A stretch of DNA of 50,884 bases. Origin: Methanomassiliicoccales archaeon (GTDB lineage Archaea; Thermoplasmatota; Thermoplasmata; Methanomassiliicoccales; UBA472). The stretch covers positions 1-50,884 of the forward strand of contig JAVYMA010000014.1 of NCBI GenBank assembly GCA_038740345.1, read 5' to 3'. Position 1 is the stretch's first letter; each line of letters opens with the position of its first letter. The notes beneath the pieces were generated by a model, which was not told the DNA's origin, did not search any database, and worked only from the letters and a program-made list of their open reading frames with translations. This document shows, one piece after another, positions 16 through 2,740 of this stretch. The position numbers and the translations under genes are program-made.

Positions 16-2740
16 CTATCCACGCCTAAACTGGCGTGGCCCAATTGAAGCTTGCCATATTTCGCCCTCCGGTCTCACGAATTGACTCTATCCACGCCTA
101 AACTGGCGTGGCCCAATTGAAGCATGACCACTGCTATCGCGGGTGTGGCACCAGCGGCCTATCCACGCCTAAACTGGCGTGGCCCAATTGAAGCCCGGGC
201 GTGGCGTTCCGTATCCATACTGGCCTGCCTTCTATCCACGCCTAAACTGGCGTGGCCCAATTGAAGCTATCTCACACTATGCCTCCTCATCTGCCGAGCC
301 ATCTCTATCCACGCCTAAACTGGCGTGGCCCAATTGAAGCGCCGTGCCGCTCGTCCAATGCAGGCGTATCATCTTGTCTATCCACGCCTAAACTGGCGTG
401 GCCCAATTGAAGCTTCGGCTGCCTCTTTCCCTGCCTCTTGTCCCTCGTCCTATCCACGCCTAAACTGGCGTGGCCCAATTGAAGCCAACGCATCGTGGCG
501 CAATTGAAGCAGCAGGAATCTCTATCCACGCCTAAACTGGCGTGGCCCAATTGAAGCGTCCCCGGAATATGGCCGATGCTGAGGCAATCGCCGTACTATC
601 CACGCCTAAACTGGCGTGGCCCAATTGAAGCCTGTCGCGTGCCAGCCGCTGAAAGGCAGGTATTGGCCCTATCCACGCCTAAACTGGCGTGGCCCAATTG
701 AAGCAGGAGCTCTACCTCCTTCATTCTCATCTCAGCCTGCTATCCACGCCTAAACTGGCGTGGCCCAATTGAAGCTAGAAGAACTGATCGAATCGAAAAA
801 GATAAAAAAGCCTATCCACGCCTAAACTGGCGTGGCCCAATTGAAGCAATCTGTCATAGTAATAGCAAGGGAAGTCGTTTATCCTATCCACGCCTAAACT
901 GGCGTGGCCCAATTGAAGCTGAGAGAGCGTTTATTATACTCTCTCTCATCCTAATCAGCTATCCACGCCTAAACTGGCGTGGCCCAATTGAAGCAGAGCA
1001 GATTCTGCCGTCTTCAATGTACACACAGACTACCTATCCACGCCTAAACTGGCGTGGCCCAATTGAAGCTTCGAGAATCGAGGAAGCATACTCCCTAAGG
1101 TACGCCTATCCACGCCTAAACTGGCGTGGCCCAATTGAAGCTATTTATTTCATGCTACATGATAACATGTAGCATGACTATCCACGCCTAAACTGGCGTG
1201 GCCCAATTGAAGCAATATTGAGATATATTGGTGCAGCGAAAGAAAAGGCTGCTATCCACGCCTAAACTGGCGTGGCCCAATTGAAGCCCGAGTTGCAGGA
1301 TTGATGAAGCGTACCTTAGGGAGCTATCCACGCCTAAACTGGCGTGGCCCAATTGAAGCCACTATAGACTTCGGAGTAGATTCTGCCGTCTTCGATGTCT
1401 ATCCACGCCTAAACTGGCGTGGCCCAATTGAAGCTTAACTTTCTTCTTTTGTTTTTATCGTGCTACATGTTACTATCCACGCCTAAACTGGCGTGGCCCA
1501 ATTGAAGCTCCTCACCTGCCTACACAGGCAATGCCTATATACACCCTATCCACGCCTAAACTGGCGTGGCCCAATTGAAGCGCAGGCGGGGGCACCTCGC
1601 CTGTGATAATCATGCACTCTATCCACGCCTAAACTGGCGTGGCCCAATTGAAGCTTTTCTGAGAATATACCTCAGCAACTATTTTATTTTCCTATCCACG
1701 CCTAAACTGGCGTGGCCCAATTGAAGCGAGGGTGTGAGACAATGCTTGATGAGGTGATTAGGAGCTATCCACGCCTAAACTGGCGTGGCCCAATTGAAGC
1801 ACTTTCTCCCCGTCAGGACATATGCCCCTAAATAATCTATCCACGCCTAAACTGGCGTGGCCCAATTGAAGCCTACATCAAGGAGGTGAGGGGGTGAGGG
1901 AGAAAAAGCCTATCCACGCCTAAACTGGCGTGGCCCAATTGAAGCTTGTCCAAAACGCCCGTGGCTCTCTCTACAATCGTACTATCCACGCCTAAACTGG
2001 CGTGGCCCAATTGAAGCGATCTAACGACCAGATAGAGCTGGAGTGCAGGGACGGCTATCCACGCCTAAACTGGCGTGGCCCAATTGAAGCCGCAACAGGA
2101 GCAAGCTGAGGACATTGGAACGGGTGCCTATCCACGCCTAAACTGGCGTGGCCCAATTGAAGCCACATAACGTAACTGCCTACGAATGCGCCCCCTATCT
2201 ATCCACGCCTAAACTGGCGTGGCCCAATTGAAGCTGTCATGTGGAAACTGGTGGGACCGTCAGTGGTCCGCAGCTATCCACGCCTAAACTGGCGTGGCCC
2301 AATTGAAGCCTTTGGGAGTCTCCGACATTGAAAGACTCCACTTGCTATCCACGCCTAAACTGGCGTGGCCCAATTGAAGCTCCTGAAATAAAAACCTGCC
2401 CTCGGTGAAGATATAAGCTATCCACGCCTAAACTGGCGTGGCCCAATTGAAGCAGGGCTATGTGTTCAAGCCCTCTCAAGTCCGTATTTATCTATCCACG
2501 CCTAAACTGGCGTGGCCCAATTGAAGCGAGGCTAACGACGGGGCCAATCAAGGACCGCAGACGGCCTATCCACGCCTAAACTGGCGTGGCCCAATTGAAG
2601 CTCTCAGGACGGGCATATCATGGTGACCTCCCAAGGCCCTATCCACGCCTAAACTGGCGTGGCCCAATTGAAGCATAACCATAGCGCTGGCCGTTCGGAC
2701 CAAGCTCCATCACGCTATCCACGCCTAAACTGGCGTGGCC
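16..2740 (+). CRISPR. CRISPR array, 37 full repeats plus a truncated last repeat
   Basis: A 36-base repeat occurs 37 times without visible variation, first at 16-51 and last full copy at 2639-2674, separated by spacers of about 35-40 bases. It contains the palindrome CCACGCC-TAAACT-GGCGTGG (7-bp stem, 6-base loop) and ends in CAATTGAAGC. The last 8 bases, ATTGAAGC, match the usual crRNA 5' handle of type I and III archaeal arrays, so the plus strand is very probably the transcribed strand. A 38th copy at 2715-2740 is cut off after GGCGTGGCC, which marks the trailer end. Bases 1-15 are the end of another spacer, so the array continues to the left, where the leader and newest spacers should be. 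No cas gene is in the window, so the subtype cannot be given. Confidence 0.99.
494..510 (+). repeat. Repeat-like segment inside CRISPR spacer 7
   Basis: The spacer at 486-521 contains CGTGGCGCAATTGAAGC, which differs from the last 17 bases of the array repeat at one position (G500 for C). It lacks the left half of the repeat, so it has no stem, and the flanking repeats at 450 and 522 keep the normal spacing. It is therefore spacer content and not a decayed repeat unit. Confidence 0.85.

Follow-up and report, generated by a model that had tools for sequence, protein, structure and literature searches.

The window, that is, the whole 50,884-nt stretch of the Methanomassiliicoccales contig that was analysed, begins inside a CRISPR array. 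Exact copies of the repeat span positions 16 to 2674 and delimit 37 whole spacers, with one further spacer fragment at the contig edge; the array runs off the start of the contig, and its leader end is therefore missing from it. A search of the whole genome (1.79 Mb) found no second array with the same repeat, and the presence of mcrA in the genome identifies the host as a methanogen. The features considered here, all given on the forward strand, are:

16 to 2740, forward: CRISPR array of 37 exact 36-nt repeats ending CAATTGAAGC, plus a truncated 38th.
995 to 1033, forward: spacer 14, same-strand partner of spacer 19, in which its 5' flank can be read as TTC.
1070 to 1105, forward: spacer 15, ending in 15 nt that are exactly reverse-complementary to the end of spacer 18.
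1142 to 1177, forward: spacer 16, with a perfect inverted repeat, CATGCTACATG-ATAA-CATGTAGCATG, after an AT-rich, TATA-like stretch.
1214 to 1251, forward: spacer 17, inside the block and without a partner.
1288 to 1323, forward: spacer 18, partner of spacer 15.
1360 to 1398, forward: spacer 19, partner of spacer 14; its reverse frame reads IEDGRIYSEVYS.
1435 to 1472, forward: spacer 20, partner of spacer 16, an AT-rich stretch followed by an end that falls within the same palindrome and so holds half of it.
2715 to 2740, forward: truncated last repeat, marking the probable trailer end and the oldest spacers.

The polarity of the array was deduced by analogy with G008, a relative assembled as a single contig, whose array has the same repeat orientation as the one described here. 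In G008 the Cas4-Cas1 gene lies just before the array and a degenerate last repeat lies at the far side, the same side as the truncated repeat here, and for this reason the leader was placed on the left, so that low spacer numbers are probably the newest and spacer 20 is probably older than spacer 14. Of the 147 genomes searched from the order, only this one and G008 have an array whose repeat ends in the same 3' sequence, while two further genomes carried one copy each of a 15-mer from the repeat 3' end. None of the 24 spacers in the G008 array is in common with the 37 spacers here. Within the G008 array (L069/L068) three consecutive spacers are duplicated, the last with one base changed, which represents an internal duplication of array units. 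Repeats with the same type of 3' end (CCATTGAAGC or CCAATTGAAGC) occur in other genomes of the class (L071, L072 and L073), indicating that the repeat family extends beyond the order; the repeat sequence had no match in the genome contigs collection.

The sole cas1 of the genome is found at one end of a contig of 7.3 kb (C39) and is fused to cas4, the Cas4 and Cas1 domains being in one open frame for which the top PADLOC model was Cas1g (2.3e-165). Upstream of this gene are those for Cas3-HD, Cas8g (2.8e-165), Cas7g (1.4e-47) and Cas5-6g (model Cas56g, 2.7e-116), and a Cas_GSU0053 domain match (1.3e-40) was also found in the operon. Of Cas3, the HD part alone is on C39, and it aligned with the C-terminal region of Cas3g; the bulk of cas3, like cas2, is off the contig. 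Judged by its gene content, the operon is of type I-G with a Cas4-Cas1 fusion. As in type I-G systems generally (formerly I-U), the genome has Cas8g (Csx17), Csb1, Csb2, a Cas4-Cas1 fusion and 36-nt repeats, and nothing unusual for this type was seen. The operon and the array are on separate contigs, C39 stopping inside cas4-1 and the window contig beginning inside the array.

An initial, sequence-only reading of this DNA had picked out three pairs of overlapping spacers, all lying within spacers 14 to 20, and parsing of the array returned exactly these coordinates for the seven spacers and the three pairs. For spacers 14 and 19, alignment bore out the shared stretch of 26 bases with three differences (23/26 identical, same strand). 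The shared part is open on the reverse strand, where it encodes IEDGRI, and codons read by hand showed that two of the differences are synonymous, as had been claimed (ATT/ATC and TCT/TCC), while the third exchanges Tyr for Cys. The exact reverse-complement ends of spacers 15 and 18 were likewise found as described (15/15 on opposite strands), and joining the two spacers rebuilds a target of 57 nt. For spacers 16 and 20, the reported overlap on opposite strands is present (14/15), but the two also align on the same strand (18/23); this ambiguity stems from the perfect inverted repeat within spacer 16, which has 11-bp arms and a 4-nt loop.

To judge these similarities against chance, ungapped alignments (match +1, mismatch -1.5) were compared with those from 60 shuffled arrays, in which mononucleotide shuffling kept the base composition of the spacers but not their dinucleotides. 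The top pair in the shuffled arrays scored 13.5, and on average there were 0.15 pairs per array with a score of at least 12. Pairs 14/19 (score 20) and 15/18 (score 15) exceeded every shuffle, whereas 16/20 (12.5) was below the shuffle maximum and borderline if taken alone; it nevertheless ranked third of the 666 pairs in the real array, the next different pair scoring 9.5. None of the three is a low-complexity match, although spacers 16 and 20 are AT-rich. The placement of all three pairs within spacers 14 to 20 is also improbable, six random spacers falling within seven consecutive ones of 37 with a chance of about 1e-4. Taken together, the block of overlapping spacers is real.

Two spacers outside the block have peculiarities of their own. 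Spacer 7 (486 to 521) contains CGTGGCGCAATTGAAGC, which agrees at 16/17 positions with the repeat of this very array at its 3' end (score 14.5, whereas 200 shuffles of the 37 spacers reached 11.5 at most). Its origin may be the junction of repeat and spacer in a foreign CRISPR array, or a viral element that resembles the repeat, and a BLAST of this spacer against phages gave chance-level matches only. Spacer 13 (920 to 958) contains an inverted repeat, TGAGAGAG...CTCTCTCTCA, which ranks second in strength among those of all 37 and lies just over the 99th percentile of shuffles.

The overlaps also permit a limited view of the sequence flanking the protospacers. Spacer 19, read upstream of the start of spacer 14, gives the flank TTC, and spacer 20, in the same-strand reading, gives TTT for spacer 16, the latter lying in a T-rich stretch and so being weak evidence for a PAM. 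The 5' flanks of spacers 15 and 18 fall outside the 57-nt join, so that the question of a shared PAM could be addressed for two spacers only (n=2). The PAM used in a study of type I-G Cas4/1, read on the PAM strand, was GAA (PMC10504553), which corresponds to TTC, and both flanks would fit the expected TTN PAM 5' of the protospacer. Since the TTT flank fits this expectation, the same-strand reading of 16/20 is favoured. The sampling of both strands that had been proposed is thus clear for 15/18 only, since 14/19 lie on the same strand, as do, more probably than not, 16/20.

Searches for the target itself gave matches at the level of chance. Eight scans of viral contigs with exact or codon-degenerate patterns found nothing convincing: five contigs with the 15-mer were identical at only 24-30 of the 57 positions, and the match in a sixth pattern hit (L056) was confined to the palindrome. 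BLAST of the array found no match in phage records and a single 24-nt chance match in plasmid records, and seven of the 37 spacers searched singly against phages (7, 14, 15, 16, 18, 19 and 20) gave E values of 0.1-5 or nothing. Searched against 150 relatives, the block had matches in 57 with E values of up to 1; once the repeats of G008 and of this genome are set aside, their scatter is what chance would give. The array matched 13 of 400 genomes of the class at E ≤0.02, including the genome itself, G008 and the arrays or repeats of two or three others; the remaining matches (E 0.004-0.02 among 400 genomes) were set aside as chance-level, the protein context of several having been read. A search of genome contigs with the IEDGRI pattern found three bacterial contigs, with matches forced by the pattern. 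For the peptides of 14/19 and 15/18, nothing credible was found in the 147 genomes of the order, short-peptide matches having E values of 0.09 and above. A thermosome gene was considered as target, as spacer 15 matches that of G104 at 22/24 nt and the motifs IEDG and LREYA seemed fitting, but an E value of 0.015 is expected by chance among 150 genomes, and the residues of spacer 18 are without the GGG stretch of the matched gene. With chance-level matches only, a common element for the three pairs cannot be shown from protospacer searches.

How far the overlaps call for a special explanation depends on the size of the target. A single 10-kb target supplying all 37 spacers would be expected to yield about 3.4 overlapping pairs even in the absence of priming, so that overlaps as such are unremarkable for a host meeting one virus family and only their crowding into the block argues for more. 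For seven spacers drawn evenly from one target, the probability of at least three overlapping pairs falls from 0.33 at 0.5 kb to 0.087 at 1 kb, then to 0.013 at 2.5 kb and 0.0032 at 5 kb, and is down to 0.00035 at 10 kb; the low values for larger targets suggest that either sampling was local or the target was tiny. The order in which one member of each pair appears (18 to 20, then again 14 to 16) had looked like a sign of two rounds but was given no weight, as 36 of 90 orders produce it.

We consider the best reading, with a probability of about 0.6, to be that related targets were sampled again and that older spacers primed acquisition locally. While spacers 20 to 14 were entering it, the type I-G array would have sampled one foreign DNA on two or more occasions, the versions met being related but diverged. 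Cas4-Cas1 would have picked fragments adjoining TTN motifs and, when a diverged target returned, the crRNAs of the older spacers 18 to 20 would have matched it imperfectly and held it, the imperfect match then priming the acquisition of further fragments from nearby, as spacers 14 to 16. Imperfect matches between crRNA and target prime spacer acquisition, and the divergence between partners, 3/26 positions for 14/19 and 5/23 for 16/20, is the kind of imperfect match that does so; priming itself we infer. Simple re-capture of one site is opposed by 15/18, which fits a shared site on opposite strands. What had been proposed from the sequence, repeated sampling by one lineage, thus stands in so far as overlapping and variant spacers occur beyond chance in one stretch of the array, but was overstated as to the strands; that a single virus family was the source is no more than a possibility.

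A different source is possible, although doubtful, for the pair 16/20 at least, namely cellular DNA of related methanogens, gained by mating, transduction or uptake and containing a promoter with an operator for aromatic metabolism. A palindrome pattern, TGCTACATGNTANCATGTAGCA, which was built from spacer 16 and so biases the search towards it, was found with up to 3 mismatches of 20 in 31 of the 147 genomes of the order (one being the array described here, and hence in 30 of 146 others), compared with 4/147 for a reversed control. Loci could be inspected for 29 of the 30 other genomes, the remaining one having given no locus and second sites in a few genomes having been left out. At 25 of the 29, the site precedes a gene for a DeoC/LacD aldolase (ADH-synthase-like), a phenylacetate-CoA-ligase-like protein, a sodium:solute symporter, prephenate dehydrogenase or a TrpB-like protein; Pfam supports the broad families for 8 of these 25 proteins, and ADH synthase, phenylacetate-CoA ligase and TrpB are our own finer reading. 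The other four loci (L088, L098, L109 and L111) have no aromatic-related or symporter gene behind the site. Among L034, L046, L050, L051, L088-L109 and L111-L113, the palindrome, about TGCTACRTGNTANCAYGTAGCA, was seen directly 3' of TATA-like stretches and ahead of such genes at 25 of the 29 loci. The palindrome is operator-like and may mark a candidate regulon of aromatic-metabolism and symporter genes in the order; a limited literature search revealed no described operator obviously alike, which is no proof of novelty.

This resemblance to an operator-like site is the reason why the target of spacer 16 may be cellular. The genome itself has no site outside the array by pattern search, and no viral contig carries the degenerate operator (0 found), so that the palindrome is known here solely from cellular promoters of the order and a non-viral source for 16/20 is conceivable. 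Mating-driven spacer acquisition is known from haloarchaea. Some archaeal spacers are reported to match genes on the chromosomes of other archaea (PMC3285040); compared with those, the likeness here is just a 22-nt resemblance to an operator, with no full protospacer. Indeed, the top genomic match has 1 mismatch in 20 and is restricted to the palindrome, and no full-length spacer match was found in the chromosomes of relatives in either the search of the block against 150 relatives or that of the array against 400 genomes of the class. Promoter columns upstream of the site, which were not derived from spacer 16, fit the TATA-like flanks weakly (P 0.05-0.08 for spacer 16 and 0.09-0.10 for spacer 20). 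The peptides of 14/19 and 15/18 also lack a credible counterpart in the order, as described above, and a host-type operator may equally be carried by a virus. We therefore propose only tentatively that 16/20 are the record of a promoter bearing the aromatic-metabolism operator of the order, in which case either the methanogen would be immunised against chromosomal DNA of its relatives or an element would have adopted the host operator and be struck there repeatedly.

The same pattern would result from a very small target, or from a small target together with priming. Even sampling without priming of a target such as a 2-3 kb smacovirus-like virus, a small plasmid or a transposon seems to us rather unlikely as the whole explanation. 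Smaller targets do raise the probability of three pairs among seven spacers, as calculated above, and Candidatus Methanomassiliicoccus intestinalis is reported to have 23 spacers against smacoviruses of about 2.5 kb, in consecutive runs (PMC6336856). However, at 2.5 kb the block is still improbable by even sampling alone, and no match was found among viral contigs, phages or plasmids. To our knowledge, the phage collection used is not one in which smacoviruses would be expected.

It is improbable that spacers 15 and 18 are instead same-strand variants of one coding site (RIEEAY/RIDEAY) that overlap by 15 nt through chance. Aligned on the same strand they match at 16/22 positions, with 5 of the 6 differences at third codon positions, and their 57-mer join is an imperfect inverted repeat (shuffle P 0.015), but the opposite-strand match is above all 60 shuffled arrays and the same-strand reading implies a flank of GAG rather than TTN. 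Finally, chance similarity or array rearrangement as the origin of the pairs is very improbable: 16/20 alone is near the shuffle maximum and the G008 array does hold a duplicated block, but 14/19 and 15/18 score above every shuffle, and the partners have diverged and are shifted by 13-21 nt against each other, unlike a duplication of array units.

Re-sampling of related targets with priming, the reading that we prefer, would place this array beside one already described. In Candidatus M. intestinalis, probably a member of the same order, spacers 34 and 49 are reported to share a 19-nt overlap, in opposite orientation, and spacers 59 and 63 to be almost identical, and runs of spacers target the small smacoviruses (PMC6336856). 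Opposite-orientation overlaps and near-identical spacers are thus common to both arrays, and the three pairs are an ordinary, already well-described signature of repeated sampling. The two differ in that the system of Candidatus M. intestinalis is of type I-B with a CCN PAM, and the smacoviruses are known as the virus family against which its spacer runs are directed (PMC6336856), whereas here the system is of type I-G with an inferred TTN PAM and no target was found.

Overlapping spacers allow part of an unseen target, together with its PAM, to be read from the array alone, and successive encounters to be dated. For the type I-G system of a methanogen, the block described here yields the flanks TTC and TTT and a 57-nt bait. 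Should 16/20 prove to be a true record of a host-type operator, the array would also be relevant to the question of whether methanogens acquire immunity to DNA from one another.
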